From Symbiodinium sp. CCMP2592 (taxonomy: Eukaryota; Sar; Dinophyceae; Suessiales; Symbiodiniaceae), in the NCBI GenBank assembly GCA_905221615.1, contig CAJNDT010000609.1, forward strand, positions 62,001-126,000: 64,000 nt of DNA. Direction: 5' to 3'. Below the pieces are notes generated by a model. It was not told the origin of the DNA, searched no databases, and was given only the letters and a program-made list of their open reading frames with translations. Shown here in pieces: positions 4,270 through 51,065 of the stretch. The stretch's first letter is position 1; every line of letters begins with the position of its first letter. The position numbers and the translations under genes were made by a program.

Positions 4270-6482
4270 TTTAACGCCATCCACCCTCGCCGTGTCCGAG
4301 AAGCGCCGTGTTATTGCCAGAAATGGCAACAAAAGAGCGTTGTGCTGCATGGCAAATTGCAGAGCACGTGCAAAGCAAGCAGTGCCATTAGTGATCAGGG
4401 CCATCTGCGGTTTCAGCGGGTTTGCCTTATGCGTTGATAAACGCTTCTGGCGGAGTGGAGCTCTTCCAAGATGTGGTGAACCAGACTAATGCTCGCCCTG
4501 AACATCAGCCTGCAGCGCCTTTTGGAGGGATGGTCGTCCTGCTCGAGAACGTGAGGCTGGTGTCTTCGCTACAGGACCTGTCTCCTATTGGTTTGGTCGA
4601 ATCAGTGTGCAAACCGAGCGCAGCACTGGCAGCGGCTCGCACTGCCGATAACTGGCCTCTGCCTAATGAGCAACTTGGTGGGTTGCCAGGGATTCAGGTT
4701 GCTGAGGTGGATTGAGGTGGTGTGGTTGGCAAACAGCATGATGGCTAGGAGTGCCATGTACGATGATGGCCACGTGTTTCTCAAATTTACATCTCGGCAG
4801 CAATTGATAGCCTTGACCATGGGGCAGTTCAGTGGATCGTTGCCCGATTCAACAATCCTGAGGTTGCTACCGGCATGCGCTTCCTCAATAGTCTTCTTAC
4901 CAACCAAACCTTGCATTTCAGTTTGTCGGGCGAGAATTGATCGCAGAAGATTTCGCGGCACAGCCACATCACAGCCGAAGGTGGAACGCACTTCCCGAAG
5001 CTATGCCCGAATTTTGTGTTTGGTGTTCGCTGATTGGGGTGAAGCTTGGATGCTTCGGGGAGAAGTGCCGCCCTTCACAGCTTTGTCCTTGGCCCTTTGG
5101 GCGCTCTTTTTTGTGGATGATGGACTGCTGCCTTTCACGGGGATGGCCCAAATATGAAAGCTCCTGCCAGATATCATTCAAGCCCTGCATCACCTTGGCC
5201 TTGGCATTCATCGCGGCTGTTGGGCCGGCACGGGCGAGGGCCGTTGCCAGCCTGCTTTGCCTGGTGAGCAGGTGGTTGCTCAAGTCACATTCTTGGGCTG
5301 TAGTGTTGTTTGTTACTGCATCAGATGAGGAGGTGGCCCAGTTGTTAAGGTTTTTTTTGCGTCTAGCCAACTATGTGTTGGATCGCATGGTCACATTTTC
5401 CAAAGGGTTTTCTTGATCAACATGTCGGTGGTTGCTTGAATTCGATGAATGATTTGGTGGGTGGGCGCCCTCTTCTGCAGTGTTGTGGCTACGCTGAGTC
5501 CAGCATTGCACGCTGCTGGCTTGGCTACGGGTTTTTCCGACAGCATCAGTCATGGGCCGATCTTTCCCAGTTTGCCTCGACGCGTCATGCGGCGAAGTTG
5601 CGGGGACGATGCTGTAATGGGTATCTTTGGGATGGTCTATGTGCTGTGCAGTGTTGGGGTTTGGTTGGGCATATGGTTCGCTCTTCTGCCTCAAGGTTGC
5701 CGTGTGCCGCTTTGACTTAGAGGTCCATATGGGAGCTTTGCATCAGGGCATGCGGCGGTCCAGACGCGGTCCCGATAAAGCCAATGCAGCTCGAGTGTCT
5801 CAATTCTTGCACTTACTACACAGGAGATGGGAGTCTGCCGAAAGCCGAGTTTCGTGGCCATCCTTGGATCGCAATGGGTGCACTATTGCGGTGTGCTGAA
5901 AGGTGATGTGGCCTGCAATGTGGAGCTTGTTCCCGTCGAGCACATGTCGTTCAGCTGTCGTTGTTTACAAAAGTGTGCTTCAGGGATCCCACCCTTTTTG
6001 CCACGCAGTTTCGGGACGTTTGCAGTTGAGTGAGTTGCGCATGCGTGAGGGGAGGGTTTCCTTTTTGAGCTCCATCTCGGAGAGCAAGTTTCAGTCGTTG
6101 GAGCTCCTAATTTTGGACGCTCCATGCCACTGTGATATGGTGCATCTCATGTTAGGTTATATTTTTGCGAAATGTCTGCTGTTGCCATTCTTTCGCTTCC
6201 GCCCTCAGCTAGCATGCTGTGTGGTGTTCCCGTGCAGCGGATTTCCATAGTGTCATTTGAACCTTGATTTTGGACACCCTAAGTGATGCGGCGTTGTGCT
6301 GCTGTGAAGTGGCATTGTGCTGCTGAGTGGGTGTCCTGTGCATGTAGTTGCGCTAGTGGATGCCCGGACTCGAGAGCGCTGAGAGAGAGGTTAGTGCCAC
6401 GAGCAACAAAGGAGCATGAGCAAGATGTTCGGCCGGTACATGCAGAATCGAGGGATGAAAAGCGATTAATGCGACATTTTTG
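4270..6482. repeat. Right copy of the long direct repeat
   Basis: It matches 1-2213 base for base apart from a handful of substitutions and begins with the same TTTAACGCCATCCACCCTCG. It ends where the left copy reads GACATTTTTGTGTC and this copy reads GACATTTTTGCTATG. With the intervening 2,056 bp it forms a 4.27-kb unit present at least 1.5 times in the window. Near identity implies recent duplication or homogenisation. Confidence 0.95.
4602..5745 (-). pseudogene. Weak minus-strand coding-like stretch in right repeat copy
   Basis: This is the counterpart of the stretch at 333-1476, with the same in-frame TAG (here at 5371-5373) and the same frame change near 4980. Differences between copies include substitutions that change residues (Asn to Lys, Pro to Leu), so there is no sign that protein sequence is being preserved. 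Product not recognised. Confidence 0.22.
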
Positions 6483-11340: not shown

Positions 11341-11461
11341 CGCGTTTGCGTCTGTTTTTGCGGCCGCAATTAGTAAACCTCACGCTCCCCCTCCCACTCC
11401 TCCTCCTCGTCTTCCTCCTCATCCTCGACCCTCGTCATCGTCGTTGTAGTAGCAGCAGCAG

Positions 11462-11462
<1 letters not shown>

Positions 11463-11545
<83 letters not shown>
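11463..11545. repeat. Pure AGT trinucleotide microsatellite
   Basis: About 27 uninterrupted AGT units. It is flanked by degenerate AGC/AGT triplets upstream (11440-11462) and by scattered AGT/AGC triplets to 11650. The poly-Ser, poly-Thr and poly-Tyr ORFs it creates are not genes. Confidence 0.97.
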
Positions 11546-28577: not shown

Positions 28578-31500
28578 GAACTCACGCGTTGTTTTAGGGT
28601 TGGGGCTAAGTGCTTCACATTTGGATTCGCAACAAGTATATCCTCTCAGCTTTGCAGTACATCTATTGAATCTATTGGGGGGTTTACAACATGATGCATA
28701 ATTACAAGACTACATCGTATCACACGGTACAGTTGGCAAAATCCGAACAATGCCCAGGAAATGGTTGTGGCTGCCAAACAAACCATACATAAGATCCATA
28801 AGCACATCTTTAGCAGATACCTTAGGTGGAGCAGAGGGTCGATCTGCTGCATGCCATGCGTTTTTCGGATAGGGCGAGAGAAAATTGCAATGGACGAGTG
28901 TAGCTTGGCATTATCCTGAATTCATTCGGAAAACTGCAATTATTCAAGCTGCGCGCTCTCCATAGCGCTGCCTCACTATATACTTCTTTGGGGGGATTTG
29001 TTATCCGTCCAGGGTGCAGTATAGTGCTTGGTCCCGATCTTCTGCAATATTCTGTAATCTACCAAAGCTGTCAACATTGAACCTCCAAAGGCGATAGACA
29101 GCAGCTGGAGCAGATCAGCTGAATGTGGCACACTTCCGCCTGAAACTCGGACATGACATGCACCGGAAACATCATCCGTAAGCAGTCATGCGCAATGAAA
29201 TTCTGCCGTCATACTAGTTTGCTCGGGATGGCCACCCAAAACAATAGCCACAGTTCTGGCCTAGACTCTGAATCCTTGCAGTCACGAGGATGCTTTCACA
29301 TTGGCAAAAGACACTTCCTGCTTCTGCTACTTCTTAGGCAGCCTGGGCTTCTAAATTGGCACCTGCTGGCGCCGATGTCTTGTAATTTGTAATTTTTTGG
29401 CATTTAGCAGTAAGGGGGGCTGCGACAGATTCATTTGGGGAAAACGCTGTCCTCCTACGTATTGAGGGGGCAGTCATTAGCTAAAGCAACACCGAAGACA
29501 TCCTCTATATCATTTACCCTGCATGTGTGTGTGTGTGTCTGTAACCTGACACTTCTAAACACAGGGCATGTCTAATGTGGGCAAGGTTCCAAGTGATGAT
29601 GTGCTAGGCTTTTCGCACACTGCATGTTGCAGGTGCCAATTTCATGATGTGTTTCATAGATTCAGCAAAATTGATGTTGCAATTCCTGAGTCTGTTGTGC
29701 CAGTGCTCCAGCTGGCTGCAAATTTCCTGTGACGCGATGCATTGGGAGCTAATTCCTTTCAGGCAGGTGGCAAAAGCCGATGTAGTAAGAAATCGAGTTT
29801 CAGGAAGATAGCACCTTCGTCCACAGAGAATTCGTTCTGCGAAATTCGTTAAGAGACGAATCCCAGGCACACGGACAGCAGCTTGCAAACTGTCCATAGC
29901 CTTTGTGACGTGCATGCCTCAGACCAGATGCTTATGCAAGAGTACTGTCAGCCCAGACTTGCATAGGATAGGTGTGTGGGATTGCAGGAGTGGGCCAAGC
30001 AAGGTCTCGCCCAGTAAATTTTGGAGTTGAACATTTAGGACAGTTACGGGCTAAAAGTTGAGGGCAACATAAAGATTTTTTCATGTGGGTCACACAAGTG
30101 CTGCAGATTACATGCCACAATTTAAACCTTCTCGAGTGTCCGTTCGAACTCTTCTTCATGAGGAGTACAGTATCTTTCTGGTGCCCCTACACATGCACAC
30201 ATATGTATATACATACATGTGTACACATATATATATATATACATATGCATATGTAAACATATTCTGCTGCTTTGCTTCCTGAGAAGTAGCCCTACTGAGA
30301 GGCCAGGACAATTGTGCAGGCAGCTTCATGGTGATGACACAATTGAGTTTAGAGATATCATTGCCGATCCTACTTTCGCTCCAGATCCTAAAGCAGTCAG
30401 GCAGCAGGGGTGTTGAATTTATGGCTCACAGATGTAGAGGTACATTCTTCAAGAAGGAGTGTGTTACCAATAGTACATATATCCAGGTTTGCATACTGTA
30501 TATGTCACAGACCGATTTCGAGAAAGACGGTGTTTTTTAAATGAGAGCTTTTTTCTCATGTCCCAAGCATATTACATTCTCCTCCACCTTTAGCCCTTGT
30601 AGGCCAACGCCCCAGATCCCACCGCACAATGTAGAACATGTCTCATGTATATGTAGTCATTTCTAGTTTGCACTGGGTAGAGAGGCCTTGCTTTGTTTCT
30701 TTCTGAAACTCCTGTATTCTCAAACCTCAGCAGAATGCTGAAGGGCTTTCCAGGAGACTGACAAAGATTGGCTTCACGAAATGGGTGTTTCTGGTGAAGC
30801 CTTCTTGGCTTTCGATAAACAAGTTTAACAGTACGTTGTATGTACTTACTCTTAACTTTGAAGACGCATGGCTCCACTTCCCAGATAGCTGACAGCCCCA
30901 AGTAAATTCATGCACATACTAAAACTTCTAGCAGAGCAAGGGGGCGCCATGCAACATAAAGTATATGCAGAAACACCGGCATGGGAATTGGGGCATTCAG
31001 AGGTTTCTGGTCGCGAGAAAAGGTCTTGCAGCCTTGGCTGGACAGTGGCTCGAAATACCTGGCATATAGCCAATTCTGTTATAAAAGCTCTATCATCTAG
31101 GACCTTTTTTGGGGGGGAATCTATGTACCTCGCAGGCAACATTGATGAAACTTGTGCTTATTTCGAGGCTTAAGCTAACGGTTCGAATCTTTCACAGCTG
31201 TTTTTTCCAAGTTTTGCGGGCTTTCCAATATCAGGGTTTGGATTGTATTGTTGAAGTAATGTTGCCGCTGCCAGCATATCAGCCTTTTAGACTTTACGTT
31301 TCCAGGTTCAGGCTTCAGCAGAAGGCCTCATGACTTTTGACTCAGAACTTAGAAACATATAATTATTTGCAGTCTCTCTGATCTATGTTGTAAAGGATAC
31401 CTTTCTTGCTCTTAAGGGGTGTATGCATGTGTACAGGCATGTATACACACTGCATACACCTAGGGAGATATGTGTTTCCAATTGGCATCCATTTCTGTAG

Positions 31501-35290: not shown

Positions 35291-37663
35291 TATACATAAA
35301 CAAAAGCTTAAAGTACGTCATGCAAATATTGAGTTGTGATAGCATAGGTATGTACAGCTGGGCCCTCGAGTTCTAGAGTTGTAATGCCAATGCTGAGACC
35401 ATGGGTAGCTGGTGTCCACACTCGACCGCATGGTCCCCTCCAAGCCTGCGAGGAACCGGGCTGCTCCAAACAGCAGTACACCTTGCAGGTAATCAGTCCT
35501 GGACAGAACTACTAGTGGTAATTTCGAGCTGGTCGCGGAACTGGAACTTTGTGTTTCTGCATGCAGCAAGGATCTGTCGATTAAAAATGCCACGGAAGGA
35601 TCATACTAGGAGTAGGAGGATTCAACAACAGAATGCTTTTTCTCCATTAAGTTGTTGATATAGTCACAGCACTTGTATTTTCACATGATGATACATCAGT
35701 AGTATGAACCTGGAAAGACTACAGTAACAAGTGCCCACTGATGTTTGGCCGAATCACTCAGCAATAAAACCGTTGTAAACTGTGTATAAACGGCACACAT
35801 TGTTTTCAAGTGACTCATACCTACCGCCAGACATGAGCCAGCATCATTAGCGATCGTTTCAAGGCATAGGCTTTTACTGTTTGGGCAGTCGAGGCTCTCA
35901 GTGGCGTTGTAGTCACATGCCCCGCCCAAGAGCTGACTGCTGTATCAGCGAAGGCCTTCATCATCTCCTTCTAATCGACCACTTCCGATATCAGTCTTCA
36001 CGGCCTTTTCTTTTAACCTCAGCCTAATGAATCTTCCCATATGGGCATCAAAAACATATACGAAGTAGCCTGTCCTCTAAATCATCTATGCAGACCTCAC
36101 AGTTGTAATGGTCATGCCTCAAACCCTTTTTTTATCCAAGGACAAAAGGCTGCCCAAGCACATCAGCAGCTTTCTGCTGGCATCGTCGTCCAACTTTGCC
36201 ACAATCTGCTCTGCAGTCTTCTTCCCACTTTCAGTGGGCACAGCCACCTGCCGTTGCCAAGCATGCTACCAATCACAAGCCTTCGCTAGGTCATCTAGCG
36301 TGCAGGGCTGAACTGAGCTTCATATGTAGTAGTCTGATACATAGTATGTATAGCAACACATTTGTAGCTAACTGCACTTTGATATCTGGTCAGGATACAC
36401 AGCATTAAAGGGGAGAGTACATGCTTGGGCTTTGTAAAAGTGAAAGGAGTATGGCACCACATGATTGCCGTAAGAAGTTGCAATACCACCTGCGTGGCCA
36501 ACAATTACACTCGGGATGTCTATTTACAAAGGGCTTGCAGATAGCACATGCTAGCCAGAAGCAGGCCGGGATGCCGTGGGTCAAGGCTAAGGATCCTACT
36601 TGTTGTACGAAAACCAAGCATGTCACCAACGGAGCCCTGACAGAATATCGATTGTATGGCATCCAAAAAGCGAAGTAGAACTAGGCATTTCTAATGTGAT
36701 TGACCACTGGATTCCTCTACATTTAGCAAGTAAAACAAGTCACGTAAAAACTTCACCCTGGGGATCGGTCCGTGAAAGCTGCACTCAGCCATGTACCTCA
36801 GGTGAACTTGGAGAAGCTGAGGCTAACATGTTTTGCAACCCGAGTTTGACACGCTAAACCGTCAGGACAAGGAGTTTTACATACGCAGACCTGCGACCAT
36901 AGAAAAAAGCGGAAGGAAACCAGTTTTTGTCTGCTGGGCCATTGCAACTCCAGCTACACCTATCTCACTGCCCTGGGGCCAGCCCTAGCTAAGTGCATCA
37001 CTGCTCTGGAGCGAGCAGGCCACATGGGCATAGGTGTGTCTGTGAGAGAACAGAAGGCAGCAGATCCAGTCCATCAAGCCTAGCTCCAAGGGGTGAGCTG
37101 TAACCTTCGGAAGGCATGGCTATGCGTGGCGATCTGTAGCTGCCTGCAGAAGCCATTTATCCTCAAGGGTTCGGAGCCAGCATTCCTTCCACGACTGCCA
37201 GGCGTCCTGGATTGTGTCTCGCTGTAAAATGCATAGCTTGGCCGCCATCTATTCAAAGCAAGACTGCTGTACATAATTTGTGCTTTCTTCCCCAGGCAAA
37301 CTCATGGAGAATATGGCCAGCACAACGCTCGGCGAAGGATCGTAAAGTCACAACTTGACGCGGTTGCAGGGTGAAGCCAACATGTGCACGGCCCGTCCGA
37401 ACTGAGGCCTGTCGCGCCGCACGCTACTTCAGCGAATTGGGCTGGAGGGATGGTTCTATGCGCGCCTAGGTGGCGATTTGGCGTGTCATGGAACCTCAGT
37501 ACTGCAGTCCACGGAGATTCCTTCATTTGCAGACACCTGGTGGTGACCCTTAGGAAGAAGAAGACCAGCAAAGGTGTGACGGCGATGTTGCAGCAGCCTG
37601 GCGTAATTTGAAAGATACTTCAAGACGCTGTGAGTCATAATTATGGACTGACATCGGGGGAAC
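35291..37663. other. No confident gene
   Basis: Overlapping small frames on both strands, for example 35401-35658 plus, 36041-36311 plus, 36405-36662 minus and 37302-37571 minus. None shows a domain or a consistent codon pattern. Confidence 0.4.
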
Positions 37664-37736
37664 ATGCGATGCTCAGGCGTGATTGCTGTGCTGAGCCTTT
37701 CCAGAACGTCTTGCCTGTTTTGGGCATTCCTCATGA

Positions 37737-37928
37737 TTGCATGGCACAAGGTCCTTTCATGTTTTGCTTCTGAGGGCAGACGGGTCGCTGAAGATCAAAG
37801 AGACCTGCCCTCGTCAGGATGCCTCTCGTTTGATGCAAGCTTTCGGGTCTGATTCATCCATCTTGCTGTCAGCAGTCATGGCCGAAGAGTGGGTGGTCTT
37901 CCAGTCCGCTGGTCTTTGCCATGTGTGA
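37737..37928 (+). CDS. Exon-like ORF, unrecognised
   Basis: A 63-codon frame with protein-like text (FHVLLLRADGSLKIKETCPR, then ASRLMQAFGSDSSILLSAVM and EEWVVFQSAG). Mixed hydrophobic and charged residues suggest a folded exon. It ends at TGA at 37926 and has no clear start. No neighbour gives context. Confidence 0.25.
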   Translation: MHGTRSFHVLLLRADGSLKIKETCPRQDASRLMQAFGSDSSILLSAVMAEEWVVFQSAGLCHV

Positions 37929-37944
37929 ATGATGGACATTTGCT

Positions 37945-38250
37945 TCAAAGTGGCACCAGGATACACACTACATCGTTCCGCGTGAGGATGCCGCACGCCG
38001 CTACATCATTGACACCAAACAGCTTTGCCGGCACAGTGTGCGCACCTTGTTGAAGAAACCCGCTTCGAAGGATGCATGCAAGGCAGGAGCCAGTGCAATT
38101 CCTAAAAAAAGTTCTGGCTGCGCGCGAATCGGAAGCCATGCGCAACCCGTGCAAGACACATTTATCCGTACCCATGTTCATAAAAAGCAGGTCTGGAGGT
38201 GAATCGTGGCTTGTGTAAAGCAGGACTCGGGCAAGTTCCGCATTTGACAT
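37945..38250 (-). CDS. Exon-like ORF, minus strand, unrecognised
   Basis: ATG at 38250, 101 codons: ELARVLLYTSHDSPPDLLFM, then GTDKCVLHGLRMASDSRAAR, then Cys-containing LACILRSGFLQQGAH and KLFGVNDVAACGILTRNDV. Composition is plausible for a small globular domain. It is convergent with the plus-strand frame at 37737-37928. Family unknown. Confidence 0.28.
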   Translation of the reverse strand: MSNAELARVLLYTSHDSPPDLLFMNMGTDKCVLHGLRMASDSRAARTFFRNCTGSCLACILRSGFLQQGAHTVPAKLFGVNDVAACGILTRNDVVCILVPL

Positions 38251-41200
38251 GCAGAGGTCTTGTGCGCCTTCTGGGGGTTGGGGGTCCCAGGTTTTCGGGC
38301 TGCTAGTGGGGCGGGGCTGGTGCTGTGAGGGTATTTTGTTCTTTGGCAGGGAGCTTACTAGAGAAGAGGTGAGGCTTGCTGTCCTGCTGCCGACAGATCT
38401 TTATTACCAAGGGCTTTTCAATGGTTCATCGCGGATGAACTGCTACACTTCATGGCGCTCTGGGCTAGTTTCATCAGCACTGATTGGTGTTGCCCACACG
38501 CACACACATACATTCATTGATCCCTCCATTCTCCATGTGCCTTTGTGCATGCACGCATGCCTCATGCACACGTGCATGCAGGCATCTATGGACCGGTACA
38601 TAATCCCATTCATTGATCCACCAAGTACTGAACGAGTTATTGCGTTCTTCACCTATGTCTTGTTTTTTCTTTCGCCAATTCACCCATGAATTTCTTCACT
38701 TGCTCACCTATTCAAATGTTCACCTCGACACCCCCTTCCTGATTTTATTCATGCACCCAGTGGCTCGTTTGTTCATTGTACCTTGAGTTGTCTGCGAGGC
38801 ACACATGCAGCAACGGCGGCAAAAGGCTAGCGTGCGTCTTTGCTAGTGTTGGGAAGCTGGTGCAGGATCATGAGGCGGAGCCGCTTGTCGTGGCAAAGTC
38901 GCAGCTGGGCCGGGAAAGATTCAGCATGAAAATCTCGAGGCTGACGAAGACTACCATTACTGTGTGTCTAAGTGTATTGGCCAGCACGGCACTGCTCTCT
39001 TTTGAAAGCTGCTTCGTTTTGCGGGAGCAGCTTTGTGTTCAAACAGCAGAGGTAACAAGGGCAGGCTTCTGACCGACTGCGGACGGCCTTTCAGGATACA
39101 GCATGATACAGCTAGAGATACATGCTACACCGCTAACGTGTTTCCCCCACTGCCCATTTATGACCTTCCGAAGTCTTGCCAGGATGTGCGCTGAAGGCGT
39201 GAAGCCTTCATCCTCGGGTCTGGGATAAAGCTCCATGAAGGTTGAAATCGCAAAGCTTTCCTTCTTGAACCAGAAGCCCTTGCCCCTGCCGTCGTTTCAG
39301 TCAGCTTGCTGCCAGAGCATGATCGTCATCCGAGGCGCAAGCGTGCAGCGGCCGCGATGGAGTGAGGTCGCGGTCATGAGCAAAGGTGCATTTCACATTT
39401 CACGGAAAGTCAAGGTGCACGTAAGCTGTCACCACGAAGACTTTGCGCCACGATGAGAGGAGGGTGGGATGGGGTGGGTGGGTGTTGGTTTTTGTTTTGG
39501 CAATGACAGGTGCAGAGAGTCACTTAAGATGTGCACTTCCGAAACACTTCTGGGAAGTGCAGCTTCAAAGAACCCCATCCTGTCCTCTCTCCGTGCTCTT
39601 CCGAGCAGACGCGGGCAGCTTCAGCACCCCAACGCAAAATGGGCCATGCGGGCATGTGTTGGGCAACTTCCTTTTGTGACTCAATCTGATGGTGCGGTGG
39701 CTTGCATTTGACTGCAAGAGCACCCCCTGATGAAGTCAGTAGCACTTGTCACCAAACTTGGTTGGCTCATGACCACTTTCCCCAGAAGCCTTCTGATCCG
39801 GGGTCTATCAGCAGGTTTTGAGTAGCGCTCCGTGCATCCCGGAGCCAGCTCTACCCTTGTGAGGTGCCTGTCAGAGGCGGATACGTGCTGTTGCCGCATG
39901 GATTTGTGGAAGTAACAAGGGGGCACAATTGCAAGAGCAGTGAGCTATAAGAAGCCGCAGGAGGGCCAGTAGTTAAAGAGTCCTCGTCAGCGACGAATGT
40001 CGGCCTGCAGCTGCTGCTCCTGCTGGCTCTGCTGCTGGCAGCCGTTCCACTTCAAGGCGGCTGTTGTTTAGTTTTGGTTTCTTGAATGCATTTGCCGCTG
40101 CGGTTGCCCAGGTCTTATAGGTATTGTTTTTATCGTGGGGGGACTGTTTAATGGTATGTCAACACAGTGCTCTAGGGCCATTGAAGCACTGCTAAAGGCT
40201 GGTAGGCTTCACGCCAAGGCGTCTTAAGGATAATTCCGTACACGGATATACACATGTATATGCATATAGTACTGGACGCACTCTGGGTCATGTATAGCAG
40301 TAGATTCAATTATGATTGTCCACAACAAAGCATTCCTTGAAAGATAAACATTGCATTGCTACACTCTACAACGCGTAATAACCCCTTATGAATAGTGCAG
40401 GTGCTCAGCCGTCGGCTAGGCAACAACAAGAAGGCCTTCTGTAATTTCCTCATTGAGCTAGACCTGCTTGAGACTCAAAGAAGTATGGGCTCCAATGTAA
40501 TTTCCTAGCAGTCTTCGATACACGGCTTTGGCTTACAACGCTTCAGGTAGTTCTGGACTTGAGGGCCCGGAACAGACTTGGGCAAACGAAGCCCCATGTG
40601 CTTCTGGTGCCATCGACCAGCCAAGGCTCTACTTTTCCAGACAAATCATGGTCCGGGCAAAACTGGCGCATCACAGCATCGGACTCCAGGTCTTCCTGCC
40701 GGGTGGTGAGGGACAAGGTTGAGGCTTAGTATGAGGAAGCACTAGATTTCAGGTTATTGATATAAGGGGTTTGTGGAGAAACAATGGTTTCTGGATGCTC
40801 ATGTAAGGGCTTTTCAGACCATATTGGGATCTAGGCCGGCTAGAAAGCTTAGTGCCTCCTGGCCTTGACCCACTCCAAGCCAGCGCAGGGGTGGGTCCAG
40901 TACGGGAGAGCCCAGGACTGAGAGTAAACCTCCTCCAGACCGTGGAAGGGTTTGTTGGCTTTCGAAGTTTTATATATTTACATAGGCATTGCTGGAACCA
41001 GCAAAACTATGACAGCTTGGCACCTTGGCATGGGCCCCTGCAATAAATTTGAAAATAAACGAGGACAGCCTCCATAGAGTCTCAAATTTACACCTCCACT
41101 CTTACGCTTGAATTCAGGCTTGGGCTCACCCAACAGTAAACCATCATAGTTCGCAGCTAAAGGGACTGAAGGCCTGCCCAGAGTACTGGGTAACAGTAAT

Positions 41201-41387
41201 CAAGCCGATGACAGACGCTAAAACATTAGCAGTACGCTTGGGGACGGAACAACCCCATGGTTTTCTGCATGCCTCAAAAGGCGCATAAGACACCATACTC
41301 CAATGCGCAGTTGGTGACAGGAGGATTACAAGACCTCTTGTGTTGCTTATAGCCAAAGTTTCACTTGGGTTCGTCCATCACCTAATA
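38251..41387. other. Sparse stretch, at most weak exon-like ORFs
   Basis: Candidates such as 38776-39072 (plus) and 39039-39236 (minus, starting MELYPRPEDEGFTPSA) overlap on opposite strands, and I cannot choose between them. A CA-rich run and short CATGCA-type repeats lie at 38495-38590, and Gly/Ala-poor Leu runs from CTGCTG near 40005-40050. From 40080 to 41380 I see nothing beyond short frames. Confidence 0.4.
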
Positions 41388-41470
41388 TTATAAATTATTA
41401 TTATTAGTATTCTTATAAATATTATTGTTATTGTTATTATTGTTATTCTTATGATTGTTATTATTACTAC
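41388..41470. repeat. AT-rich TTA/TTG triplet microsatellite
   Basis: Imperfect ATT/GTT triplets (ATTATTATTATTAGTATTC, then ATTGTTATTGTTATTATTG). An abrupt compositional change from the flanking DNA. Confidence 0.85.
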
Positions 41471-41819
41471 CTGGACAACGCATAGGCCACGGCGCTGCGT
41501 CAGCTCACGGAGAGACGCTCGCAGCATCTTGTTCGCCCTGCCCCAGAAGCCAGGTCACTGATGAGCCAAATCTGTGTAGGATGTCTATGTAGCACTTTTG
41601 ATTAGACTTTATGTGAGATAGAAATGTCAGAGTAAGCTATACACATTTTACCTCCAGGGTGTGTCAAATATGCAAAGTAGCAAGACCTGGACTGACTGGT
41701 CAAATGCTAGGTTGCCTCCGGGCTTAGCTTTTCAGGTTTAATTTTTTTCGTTTGCACTTTAAGGTTTTAGGTTTCATAGCCTGGCCGGCTGTCAGGCTCA
41801 CGTGCTTTAGGGTTTAAGG

Positions 41820-42155
41820 TTATGAGATTATTAGGGCCACAGGAAGCGGGTCCCCAAATTAATTATTTTTGCATAATTTGTGCGTATTTCTTGCGTATCG
41901 GATTTGGCTTGCGTATCGGCTTGCATATTTTGTGCGTATTTTGTGCGTATTTTGCGCGTATTGTTGCAAAGCAAAAAATATGCAAAACATATGCACAACA
42001 TATGCACAAAATATGCATGACGATATGCACAGCAAAAACAATATGCGTAAAATATGCAAAAACGATATGCACAAAATATGCACAACATACGCATAATTTT
42101 CGCAAAATAATTATTTCCAGGTTTGCCAATGTGTAGCCTGCTAATAATCTCATAA
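41820..42155. mobile_element. 336-bp inverted-repeat element with perfect 15-bp ends and 8-bp target duplication
   Basis: The ends are TTATGAGATTATTAG (41820-41834) and its exact reverse complement (42141-42155). The 8 bases before the left end, GTTTAAGG (41812-41819), are repeated exactly after the right end (42156-42163), as expected of a target-site duplication. Inside, the left half carries runs of TTTTGTGCGTA-type words and the right half their reverse complement (ATATGCACAAA), so the element can fold on itself almost end to end. There is no transposase frame; Cys/Tyr/Ala-rich ORFs on both strands come from the short-word repeats. An 8-bp duplication is seen in hAT, P and Merlin-type elements, but the termini do not match one I know. 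Confidence 0.88.
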
Positions 42156-42163
42156 GTTTAAGG

Positions 42164-42891
42164 CTTTGGGGTTGAAGGGTTGTGGGCTCGTTGAGGCTGT
42201 CAAGGTTCACACTGTAGCGTTTTAGGTTTTCGGTCAATGAGCTAAATCAGCCATCCATGGCGCGTTGCCCAGCCCCAAGGATGGCTCGGAATACCAGTGC
42301 CCGAAGCATCCCATCATTCTCAGGAGTACCCTAGGTCGCCTTAGGTAGCAAGGTTTGAGCCTGGGTTTCTTAAAAGGACAATGGTGCTACGCAAATCCGA
42401 TTTCCTGAACTCTTTCCTGATTTCAGGTTGGCAGCTGCCATGTACTTGAGGCATGCAAACATCTCTGATGCTCGTGGCTCTCCAAGGAATTGGCTTTTTC
42501 TCCAGCGAGCGTTGTGAAGGAGTTTTCCGTGGATCCAAGGTGGTTTCTATGCCGCCACTGGATGGCGAGCTTGTTGCCATGTAAAGGCGCGGGGCGACAT
42601 TCTAAAATGTTGACCAGGAGTCTGCAGTGTTGTGAAGGAAAAAAGGACAATATGCATTTAGAGTTAAGCTGCAACCGCAGGAAGATGCCATAGAAATCCC
42701 CGGATGCTGTGTGAAGAGTATGATGCTAGCCGCGAGGTCACCAAAGCTACTGGCTTTTACTTGTTTCCATGCGTTGCACTGTTTGGAGATTGGTTCTCGT
42801 CTAGTCACTCAACAAACTGAGCGGCCAGGGCCAACCAAAACGCAAAAGAAGTTAGGTTGAGCTTGGAAAAAGTCGTGTTGGCAAGCCACGC
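42164..42891. other. No gene seen
   Basis: Flank of the inverted-repeat element. Short conflicting frames only (42423-42674 minus, 42490-42693 plus). Confidence 0.4.
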
Positions 42892-43332
42892 TTGATCAGA
42901 TTGGCTCCCCCGGTTTCGTCACCAGAGAGCGACATGTCAGAAAGCCAGGCTTCCAAGGCCTTGACTGAAGTCCATGGTAGTTGCTCTGAAGCCAAAGGTT
43001 GCACTGTAGAGCCAGGGGATGGGGAAACCACTGAACAAGTGTTAGAGAGGTTGCTTCGACAGCAGACTGGTCTCACCATGGGCCAAGCAAATGCAAACAA
43101 AATGTATCCTAGCACCTTGCAGCTACCGATCACGCACCCTTGGGTCCATGCCCTCCTGCTAATCAAGGCCAGATTTCACTCAGGTGTCTTTTTTGGGTCG
43201 GGGTTAAAAGCACAAGGGGGCGTTTGGTACAGCAAGTACACGGAGCATCGCCAAAGCTTTGCAGGGAGAGCTGTAAAGGGGAATAGTACTCACAACAACA
43301 GTATTTGTGATGATAGCATTGCGCATTTCTGA
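42892..43332 (+). CDS. Hypothetical exon, acidic to polar, unrecognised
   Basis: The best part is 42892-43110: PPVSSPESDMSESQASKALT, then EVHGSCSEAKGCTVEPGDGE, then TTEQVLERLLRQQTGLTMGQ. A Ser/Glu-rich disordered stretch leads into a helical segment. The frame stays open to 43330 but the later part looks less coding. The DNA just before reads CTTGATCAG, a possible acceptor. Function unknown. Confidence 0.35.
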   Translation: MIRLAPPVSSPESDMSESQASKALTEVHGSCSEAKGCTVEPGDGETTEQVLERLLRQQTGLTMGQANANKMYPSTLQLPITHPWVHALLLIKARFHSGVFFGSGLKAQGGVWYSKYTEHRQSFAGRAVKGNSTHNNSICDDSIAHF

Positions 43333-43439
43333 AGAAGCACCTTCATTCTCACAGGCAACGGCAAAGGGCAACAGGTGATTGCATTCTAGTTGTATGTGTA
43401 TCACCTGAGTTCGGGCTATGATCTTTGCTCCAAGCCTCC

Positions 43440-43740
43440 CCTCACATCAACTGTCCACCTAGCGTTAGCCAAGGCTTCTGGTTTCATTGAGGTTTGGACG
43501 CGCCCGTACTCGACACCACGCCGAGGATCCACAAAATTTGCAACATGTGGTCTCACTTCGGCACAGCAGGAGCAAATGCAGATGATAACTTTTGTGAATA
43601 CATGGCAGGAGGCACCAGTCATCACATACAACTGGGCCACCCCTGGCGGCCTCCCCCGAACGGCACTGGTGTACCACGGGTGTCGACCGGGACCCACCAG
43701 TGTGGTGCAGCGCCAGCCCAAAACAGCCATCTTCATTCAC
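43440..43740 (+). CDS. Hypothetical exon, unrecognised
   Basis: Part of a 207-codon frame (43390-44013). Codons up to about 43740 are protein-like (LALAKASGFIEVWTRPYSTP, TSAQQEQMQMITFVNTWQEA). Beyond that the frame crosses a small AT-rich tandem duplication and becomes hydrophobic. It follows the exon-like segment at 42892 on the same strand by about 100 bp and may belong to the same gene. Confidence 0.27.
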
Positions 43741-43743
43741 TGC

Positions 43744-43811
43744 ACGCAATTACCATCCTTTTTGTCATTATTACTATACGCAATTACCATTCTTTTTGTC
43801 ATTATTGCTAT
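43744..43811. repeat. 34-bp tandem duplication
   Basis: ACGCAATTACCAT starts at 43744 and again at 43778, each followed by (C/T)CTTTTTGTCATTATT(A/G)CTAT. Two copies with three differences. Confidence 0.88.
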
Positions 43812-44399
43812 AACTAATATCATTCCACTACAACTATCATTATACAGAAGCCTGGAAATTGAGATCTTCAGTGTGCTAACGGCAGCAAACAAGCGGTTAC
43901 TCCTAGACTATCACATTGGCCAGGCGATGGGGGCTAGAGGACCGAGGAAAGACAATTGTATGAAGAGCAGACAGACCTGCCTAAGAAATGCAAACCAGAA
44001 TCGAGAGACGTAAGTCTCCACTAATTAACGGAGAATGCAAGGAAGCAGCCCGAAGTTATGCTTCTGGAGCGTCGCAGCTGTTTGCCCTCATCAGCCAGCG
44101 TCTTCGCATTGCAAATCCTCATGTTGGTTAGTTTGTTGCTTGTAACTCGGCCCATGAAGACAACATAAAGGGCAAGGCCTCATAGGTATTGGAGGGTTTG
44201 TTGGGAAAGTGTGGTGTCTCCTTGCCAATCGACCTCGAGGCGGTGGTCCTGTGCAGGAAGTCGTGGTGGAAGGCAACAGGCATGTCCCAGTACTCTAGCT
44301 AGCCGGGGAATTGTGCATGCGCCGTGGCACGAAACATCCACGGCTTTTATAGCACATCCCTCATCAGGGTGCTGCAGGCTAATACAAAACTGGCCATCA

Positions 44400-44720
44400 G
44401 GTAAGAAAGCCGGGGCGTCAGGTTCTTGCGGAAGCGTTTGTTTGGTTCTGTGGGGTATAAATTTTCAGAAGTGCCCAAAGTGTGGAAGGTCTGGTCCCTG
44501 CTGTTACTCACACCTGCCTGTACTAAACCCAAAGCCCAAGACTGACAACAATGTCTGCAATGTGAACCAGCTGATCATGAATCAGATTGCTCATGAAGGG
44601 TCCTTGCCCAGCAGCTGCATGGAGTACATAACGAGACCTCAACATGCATTTCACAAGGGTAGTGGCCCGCAACGTCGGCCCGAGCTGTTTCAATTGTATC
44701 AATTTGGTTGCTTCGTGCAT
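44400..44720 (+). CDS. Possible exon with a CPKCG knuckle
   Basis: The frame 44211-44723 includes NFQKCPKCGRSGPCC (about 44460-44505), one Cys-x-x-Cys pair followed by two more Cys. Composition elsewhere is weak. A related QKCPSCG stretch occurs about 1.1 kb downstream at about 45560. A zinc knuckle is possible but no full domain is seen. Confidence 0.22.
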
Positions 44721-44911
44721 TGAGGCTCAGAAGGATCTAAGTCCATCCGTGTTTGCTGAAGCTAGTCGTTTTTGTTTACTGAACTCGGGAATTTCTGTGA
44801 TTCTGGTCCGAGGGATGGTTGTAAAGATTTGCACGGTAGGCTCCCAGTGCATTGACCTTGTGAGTTATGAGCCGAGGCATGTGCGTTGGCGCGTCGACTT
44901 GTACTTCCAGG
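44640..44911 (+). CDS. Exon-like ORF, unrecognised
   Basis: Frame 44644-45099, best part to 44911: NVGPSCFNCINLVASCIEAQ, then KDLSPSVFAEASRFCLLNSG, then VVKICTVGSQCIDLVSYEPR. A plausible splice donor (CAG/GTTTTC) follows YFQ at 44911. Beyond it the frame is unconvincing. It overlaps the CPKCG frame at its start, so only one can be real there. Confidence 0.27.
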
Positions 44912-45325
44912 TTTTCTGCTTTCATCCTGCCATATTACGACGGATGTCTTGGGACCCCATGCTTGCATTTGGACATGTCTCCTCCCCCCCACACACGCCT
45001 GGCATCGTCTCTGCTTTGTTTCTGGGGATCAACGTGTTGACTTTCGCATTTCGGGGTTTTAATGGAAACGAGAAAAAAGCACAGGCGGAAGCGGCTTGAA
45101 CCCTTGGCCGTGTCCATTCGAAACCGTGATGGGTCCAGCGGGCCCTCGTCAACTATTTGGCTGGGGTCCACTTGAAAAGAGCCGATCTGTGCTGGCTGCT
45201 TAATGAGAAAGTCAAGTATTCCGAGCATGTTTTCACACGCAGAGCTAACTTGTCACTGACCTGTCAGTTTAGAAAACGCAGTTTGCAATGTCTGCGCTCA
45301 TGCAGCACTTTTTTTCTCGTCTGAG

Positions 45326-45982
45326 TTGCAAAATACCAACCCTTGTCGGTTTGAGTTAAAATTGAGTAGTCTTGAAACGGCTTCAGCTGGACAGCTGGAG
45401 TTTGCTTGGAACTTGTTTGACCGGCTTTTGAGGACTAACAGAGCGCAGGCCACAGACGTCATAGATGGCCGTCTTTTGGTCGGAAGTTGGTTGTTTGTTC
45501 GATGTTCCGACCCACTCGGCCCGAGTTGTTCGTTTATATTAATTTGTGGAGAATGGCAGAAATGTCCCAGCTGCGGGGCCGGCATTTGCGTGCAATCCAT
45601 GATGTGTAATGCATTATTCCAGCCAATAAACATCAAGGGAAATCCTAAGAATTTGGGGTGTTTCGGAAGAGAGGGGACTGTTGTGGCGTGGGAAGATAAG
45701 GACAACATCAGCATTTTTTCCTCTTCGTTGCTACCTGTGATGCAGCAGAACAAGCATGCTTTGCTTCGAGCGGTCTCTGTGGCAACACACGTGACATGGA
45801 AAACTACGTGGACGTATATGTGCAGAACACCCAAAACGAAGCGACATATGCTCATGAGACTTGTATTAGGACAGATTCTCATACAGATGCTCAAGGCTTT
45901 TCTCTTTGAGAACGGCCTTCATGTCATTTCAATTGTCACCGTTGTTTTTGTGATTGTAATATGTAGCACTTCTTTAATGTAA
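45326..45982 (+). CDS. Hypothetical ORF, 218 codons, one CxxC pair and a hydrophobic C-terminus
   Basis: One of the longer uninterrupted frames. The N-terminal half is protein-like (ETASAGQLEFAWNLFDRLLR, TNRAQATDVIDGRLLVGSW), then WQKCPSCGAGICVQSMMCN with a Cys-x-x-Cys and two later Cys. The last 30 residues (HVISIVTVVFVIVIC) are hydrophobic and could span a membrane, but lie in T-rich DNA where such stretches arise by chance. It starts from TTG near 45326; the true start is unknown. No family recognised. Confidence 0.3.
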   Translation: MQNTNPCRFELKLSSLETASAGQLEFAWNLFDRLLRTNRAQATDVIDGRLLVGSWLFVRCSDPLGPSCSFILICGEWQKCPSCGAGICVQSMMCNALFQPINIKGNPKNLGCFGREGTVVAWEDKDNISIFSSSLLPVMQQNKHALLRAVSVATHVTWKTTWTYMCRTPKTKRHMLMRLVLGQILIQMLKAFLFENGLHVISIVTVVFVIVICSTSLM

Positions 45983-46279
45983 TTGTTGCAATCAGTCTTA
46001 TTGCCGTTATGGTATTGTTAACACGGTTGTTACTATAACAATATGGAGGTTCCATGCGGGAAGCCCCCCCTTCGAAAACACACATCACGAATAATGAATA
46101 ATGGCGTCGTAGTGCCACATAGTATTTTGATGAAGCTGCTTCGCGCGATGAGGCAGGAGCCGTTCCTAAAGCCGTTACGGTTCTAAGCCGGATCAGGTGC
46201 CCAGTGCTTATTGGCTTTTCATAACCCCAGGGTTTTGACGCTTTTTTCCGAATTTGCCTGCGAGTACAGGTCATGATAG

Positions 46280-49342: not shown

Positions 49343-49507
49343 CTGCATGCATGGTGGTAGTAGGAGGAGTAGGAGAGTAGTCCTAATAGTAGGAGCTTAG
49401 TAATAGAAGGTTTAGGAGCAGCGTCGTAGTAGTAGTAATAGTAGTAGTAGTAGTAGCAGCAGTAGCAGCAGGAGTAGTAGTAGTAGTAGTAGCAGCAGTA
49501 GCAGCAG

Positions 49508-49567
<60 letters not shown>

Positions 49568-49690
49568 CAGCAGCAGCAGCAGCAGTGGCAGCAGTAGTAG
49601 TAGTAGTAGTAGTAGTAGCAGCCGTGGCAGTGGGACTAGAACAAGAAGAAGAAGTCGTAGTAGCAGTAGTAGTAGAAGATATACGTGTAG
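49343..49690. repeat. TAG/CAG-type trinucleotide repeat region
   Basis: Long runs of AGT/TAG triplets, the purest at about 49507-49562, with interspersed AGC. It includes a duplicated segment: AGCAGCAGTAGCAGCAGGAG occurs with slight change near 49458 and 49491. Pure-triplet structure ends at about 49690. Confidence 0.95.

Positions 49691-50386: not shown

Positions 50387-51065
<679 letters not shown>

Follow-up and report, generated by a model that had tools for sequence, protein, structure and literature searches.

The window analysed here, a 64,000-nt stretch of Symbiodinium sp. CCMP2592 (contig CAJNDT010000609.1, positions 62,001–126,000), contains a 336-bp element with inverted ends, which raises the question of what kind of mobile DNA it is and what could move it. 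It occupies positions 41820–42155 and is bounded by perfect 15-bp inverted repeats, TTATGAGATTATTAG at 41820–41834 (plus strand) and its exact reverse complement at 42141–42155 (minus strand). A perfect 8-bp duplication, GTTTAAGG, flanks it at 41812–41819 on the left and 42156–42163 on the right, and has no further occurrence on either strand of the window. A sequence-only reading had proposed this element with its length, ends and duplication, and was right to the base. When up to three mismatches were allowed, the 15-mer was found in the window twice, at the two element ends and both times without any mismatch. Shuffled windows gave a mean of 1.07 matches at the same loose setting and reached two matches in 27 of 100 shuffles, so the weight lies on the exactness of the matches, their inverted pairing and the further copies of the 15-mer in the genome.

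The element shows features by which MITEs are recognized: it is short, has perfect inverted ends and carries no transposase of its own. A tblastn search with four proteins encoded by much larger elements with the same ends (P0001–P0004, see below) found nothing in the window at E 1e-2, and no Pfam family was found at E ≤ 0.01 on the plus strand of window positions 36001–45999. Degenerate words resembling TTTAGGG lie in the flanks (41738–41819 and 42156–42230); the element may have inserted into an old telomere-like tract. Elsewhere the window contains a direct repeat (1–2213 versus 4270–6482; 99.7% over 2213 bp, spacing 4269 bp), perhaps a recent duplication, a CTA triplet array at 50620–51049 (~144 copies, 94% match) and two GTA arrays (11446–11545 and 49426–49675).

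Further copies were sought in the source assembly (1.098 Gb, 5383 contigs). A query that we take to be the dinoflagellate spliced leader has 429 exact matches in this assembly (control, 0). There are 39 exact matches to the 15-mer (21 forward and 18 reverse; control, 0), and 32 of these form 16 inward-facing pairs; these counts are lower bounds, as elements with altered ends are missed. One pair is the window copy of 336 bp, 13 span 783–851 bp, and two are giants of 35,780 and 35,761 bp. All 16 pairs, the window copy included, are flanked by perfect 8-bp duplications, so that the target duplication is of constant size, another MITE feature. Two mid-size copies (L011 and L020) share their flanks and were counted as one site, giving 15 independent sites. 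Together with the spliced-leader matches, the 16 duplicated pairs support the earlier proposal: the element is mobile, its ends are defined, it duplicates 8 bp of its target and its host is a dinoflagellate.

Copies with the same ends are thus present elsewhere in the genome, and their similarity does not run past the termini. When 592-bp flanks were compared between sites for the window copy, both giants and all 13 mid-size copies, there was no homology other than that of L011 with L020 and 27-bp matches that link L013 to L017. Repeats between the left and right flanks of one site were found at L012 (260 bp), L019 (119 bp), L017 (29 bp) and C1268 (172 bp); in L012 and L019 the longest of them lie more than 200 bp away from the insertion.

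Seven of the 39 matches to the 15-mer are unpaired. Contig C524 carries what resembles a truncated giant, matching to ~7.5 kb and then showing no match above 200 bp in the next 2.5 kb; C2979 repeats the right end and flank of the giant on contig C1 (99.9% over 2.4 kb), and C796 contains a match of ~546 bp to a mid-size copy. On C4623, a left and a right tip at positions 601 and 3359 of locus L025, both in plus orientation, have ACCTAGTC and its reverse complement beside them, as if an inversion had split a single element. Contigs C315 and C5344 were left out of the family: the exact 15-mer there (L022, 4208–4222, and L027, 4001–4015, respectively) stands beside an interior unlike the element, the same in both.

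The two giants (~35.8 kb) have the same tips as the small copies, as well as subterminal repeats in common with them, and are inserted at different duplications, TGCTGCTG and TCGTTGAC. In the left 28 kb their main aligned blocks are 94–95% identical to each other; the right-hand part is 84–92% identical. Every one of the 13 mid-size copies keeps the order of the giant, with a left end of 171–194 bp (94–95%), a piece from near 17.75–18.0 kb (85–99%) and a right end of 261–275 bp (90–94%), as expected of internal deletions. The mid-size copies are 95–100% alike among themselves, and the window copy is 76–77% like each of them. It matches the giant over the left 185 bp at 77% and over the right 86 bp at 84%; its minus strand corresponds to the giant's orientation, with the left tip first. 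A genome search with the window element returned 61 match rows, among which there was no close sister, the best non-self matches being 78% over ~187 bases, or at most 85% over short tip pieces. It may therefore stem from a different, unseen subfamily of giants.

Beyond the 15 bp the two tips differ, continuing with CAGGCTACA on the left and GGCC(A/G)CA on the right. In the tip alignment, the left repeat of the window element is followed by GGCCACAG, the giant's right-end type, and the repeat at its right end by CAGGCTACA, the giant's left-end type. Common to 18 aligned tips (nine left, nine right) is a AATTATTTT(T)GC-type box ~40 bp inside both ends, with single-base variants. Its counterparts in the window element are a AATTAATTATTTTTGC box ~37 bp inside the left tip (41857–41872, plus strand), similar to boxes at both ends of aligned copies, and a box of AATAATTATTTTGC type that belongs to the other end (42102–42116, minus strand). 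Arrays of short words around TTGCATA point inward from both ends of the giants; per 500-base bin of the giant, such subterminal words number 12 and 16 in the bins of the two ends and 0–7 elsewhere, the sole other rich bin (12 words) being the one with the internal piece that the mid-size copies also contain. The window element has variants, TTTTGTGCGTA, at the corresponding places: a left array of inward-facing words of TTTTGTGCGTAT type (41873–41965, plus strand), and a right array in which these words run the other way, of ATATGCACAAA type (41978–42101, minus strand), within the part that matches the giant's left end.

Folded as single-stranded DNA, the 336-bp element reaches −80.4 kcal/mol against a shuffle mean of −45.15 (z = −8.77), and none of 100 shuffles folds as well. 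The sequence-only reading had called it a foldback element, and the opposed word arrays and the fold agree with that description; as an element class the term does not hold, because the folding is a consequence of both ends carrying the same short word pointing inward. The TTTAGGG-like words of the flanks could be taken to indicate no more than a simple palindrome, or an inverted repeat arisen by chance, in telomere-like surroundings of low complexity, but the z-score of the fold and above all the recurrence of these ends at 15 independent sites, each with a duplication of its own, refute this, and we give it a negligible probability.

In the giants, whose frame coordinates are given for the C1 element, the main reading frames lie on the minus strand: P0003 (25380–27398), P0002 (23764–25266), P0001 (20952–22946) and P0004 (11599–13074), besides a frame with weak methyltransferase resemblance (28767–29402, equivalent to L031 367–1002, also minus strand). 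P0003, as the first exon, and P0002 form a two-exon gene with a D...D...C-x2-H...E pattern, and an intron-like stretch with GT...AG ends, read by eye, separates them. A longer relative with the same ends and a transposase-type frame, as the sequence-only reading had suggested looking for, therefore exists in both 35.8-kb elements. The lengths of P0003, P0002 and P0001 agree within two codons between the giants, and those of P0004 (492 versus 544 aa) and the 28767–29402 frame (212 versus 243 aa) differ more. Across the five frames dN/dS between the giants is below 1 throughout (0.27, 0.32, 0.41, 0.47 and 0.52), a modest test from a single sequence pair.

P0003 has 68 match rows in the source genome at E ≤ 0.001 (66 of 179 candidates were scored); certain loci are represented by two rows, and part of the near-identical rows may reflect duplication in the assembly. 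Two rows, those of the giants, are at 97–100% identity and the others at 23–48%, and an internal stop interrupts three of the 68. At nine relative loci, the parts corresponding to P0003 and P0002 lie on one frame (757–1148 aa) in seven, on different frames in one, and P0003 alone was found in one. An alignment of ten rows shows D401, C429 and H432 to be invariant and D261 (of YDETP) nearly so, being absent in L064. A DI..(I/V)E..H motif follows downstream in five rows and in P0002, so that the giant's E motif falls in the second exon. Several rows of the family carry an AT-hook-like RGRPR near the start, and there is a weak HMG-like stretch near the end (HMG-box match at E = 0.045 in one relative). 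We take the D, D, C-x2-H, E order of P0003/P0002 to be a hAT-like transposase order; hAT transposases have D...D...C-x2-H...E in succession, and the giant's gene has the same order. From this RNase-H-like motif pattern and its genomic association, the gene encodes a putative transposase.

Profile searches linked it to no known family. No Pfam model reached its cut-off for the giant's exons (E ≤ 0.1) or the nine relatives (E ≤ 1); neither the hAT models, with which a shared fold would still be compatible, nor the KDZ model appeared in these results. Pinin_SDK_N in the transposase relatives (E 8e-4 to 9e-4, 20 bits versus a cut-off of 31) and the sub-cut-off matches to Herpes_US8A, DUF7731 and TetR_C_16 were dropped as chance or low complexity. 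No transposase among the PDB sequences matched, and the only hit there was an AT-hook peptide (E = 4.3). IMG/VR held no relative of the terminal pair, the first exon or the family alignment, and phage records no relative of the first exon.

A divergent relative on contig C4457 (46% identical), the one relative in which the partner order was looked for with enough downstream sequence, keeps the order P0003, P0002, P0001, with P0001 matches of 44% and 39% downstream. The frame at 28767–29402 gave a Pfam match to cytosine methyltransferase with E = 0.02 (14.8 bits versus a cut-off of 22), which was not recovered when the frames were scanned whole at E ≤ 0.1. It matched nothing in the PDB and had one insignificant phage match (E = 0.7); by eye it contains the motif-like strings SPCDPFS and VEQVKGF. 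It is possible that this frame is a cytosine methyltransferase cargo.

At ~35.8 kb, the giants fall within the 14–40 kb range given for polinton-like viruses in PMC12220804, and they might be read as integrated viruses of that kind, with the small copies as remnants. A six-frame Pfam search of one giant, made in pieces, found no capsid, polymerase, protease or packaging match, some of which introns could hide, and nothing above a curated cut-off; sub-cut-off matches to Atrophin-1, PRP38_assoc, Trypan_PARP, DUF3915, SpoIISA, DUF1480 and DUF2207_C were set aside as chance matches or low-complexity sequence. Polintons duplicate 6 bp of their target, whereas the duplications are 8 bp in both giants. 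We consider a viral origin very unlikely.

Target choice was compared at the 15 sites, oriented by the giant. The central dinucleotide of the duplication is TA at nine of them. Position 4 is T at 12 sites and position 5 is A at 12, and at 14 sites both central positions are A or T. Against the TA frequency of the window, nine central TA have P ~2e-9, a value to be read with the centre having been chosen after the data were seen. All nine belong to the 13 small-copy sites, and neither giant has a central TA. The consensus nnnTAnnn is that of Buster duplications (PMC3517528), and 8-bp nnnTAnnn duplications with short inverted ends also link the small copies to the hAT Buster group and its MITEs, such as Mar of Drosophila. 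Mar is reported in the same paper to have the tips CAG(G/A)GGTAGGC, unlike the TTATGAG... of the family here. Further differences from hAT are the lack of a Pfam hAT match and the putative parent of ~36 kb. Judged from these sequences, the family is hAT/Buster-like in target choice and is not assigned membership, because neither its tips nor its protein profiles fit hAT.

These sites also bear on the possibility that a small stand-alone autonomous family of a few kb, for example an ordinary hAT/Buster, moves the small copies, the giants being passengers with acquired ends. The Buster-type duplications (PMC3517528) are found in small copies and in neither giant, and the giant's transposase frame is present at 97–100% in two copies only, both of which would suit such a family. 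On the other hand, the 16 exact-15-mer pairs include no intermediate length (336, 783–851, or 35,761 and 35,780 bp), although elements with altered ends would escape this count, the transposase-type gene has conserved frames in both giants, and the order of P0001 with this gene is kept in the distant C4457 relative. Taken together, we regard a stand-alone family as unlikely.

The copies, their ends and duplications, the shared tips, the transposase-type gene within elements of the same ends and the conserved frames are direct observations. The window element is very probably a miniature non-autonomous DNA transposon made of the two ends of a ~35.8-kb giant and moved in trans by the family's transposase. 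The absence of a central TA from both giant duplications counts against this explanation, and our confidence is slightly reduced on that ground. According to the proposed mechanism, the giant's transposase-type protein, whose N-terminus is AT-hook-like, would bind to the subterminal repeats that face inward from either end. The 15-bp tips would then be brought together and the DNA excised in a cut-and-paste mode. The target would be cut with an 8-bp stagger, in many cases with TA at its centre, and repair after insertion would leave the 8-bp duplication. Miniatures would arise from giants by internal deletion, the giant presumably coming first and the miniature later, and would be supplied with transposase in trans.

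The sequence-only reading had also described the insertion as apparently recent, an age that the evidence does not establish. A 30-base pattern of the joined flanks, representing the empty site, gave three matches, each with two mismatches; in the two candidate loci examined (L072 and L073) the similarity ends within ~30–50 bp without continuing into the flanks, and we claim no empty site. The window copy is moreover a lone subtype at 76–77% similarity to the mid-size copies, and the points in favour of a recent insertion are its perfect ends and duplication.

Several other known systems share single traits with the family. Zisupton (KDZ) elements have 8-bp duplications, and DNA transposons with a DNA-modification gene (TET/JBP) have been described (both in PMC12730594); here there is no Pfam KDZ match, and the modification-like exon weakly resembles a cytosine methyltransferase instead. 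The two Kyakuja families described in the same paper differ by 7-bp duplications and by being without inverted ends. ToxhAT is likewise a large transposon, and its name implies hAT, but it is fungal, measures 14 kb and moves ToxA (PMC12506042). Dinoflagellate retrotransposons with acquired cytosine methyltransferases (PMC5890265) are comparable in being mobile with a possible C5-methyltransferase; the element here is unlike them a DNA element with inverted ends, and its methyltransferase match is below the curated cut-off. Introner elements are also short and repeated, many of them with inverted ends and target duplications (PMC9860276 and PMC7789003). Some DNA transposons of alveolates, such as Merlin, are described (PMC8101967). 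In the titles and opening abstract text of the open-licence papers that our searches returned, no description of these ends, this transposase or such a giant in dinoflagellates was found.

The end pair and the family are real; the small element alone is ordinary, and the giant parent and the unplaced transposase family are not. We tentatively suggest, with somewhat more doubt than confidence, that they may represent an undescribed superfamily of ~36-kb dinoflagellate DNA transposons, with a two-exon transposase lineage outside known profiles, dozens of diverse and mostly uninterrupted frames in one genome, a conserved partner, a possible methyltransferase cargo and miniatures of 336–851 bp. 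The sequence now defines the tips and the target choice as well as the transposase-type and partner genes, all of which are open to direct test. If such a superfamily exists, its 336–851 bp miniatures would allow the family to be traced.
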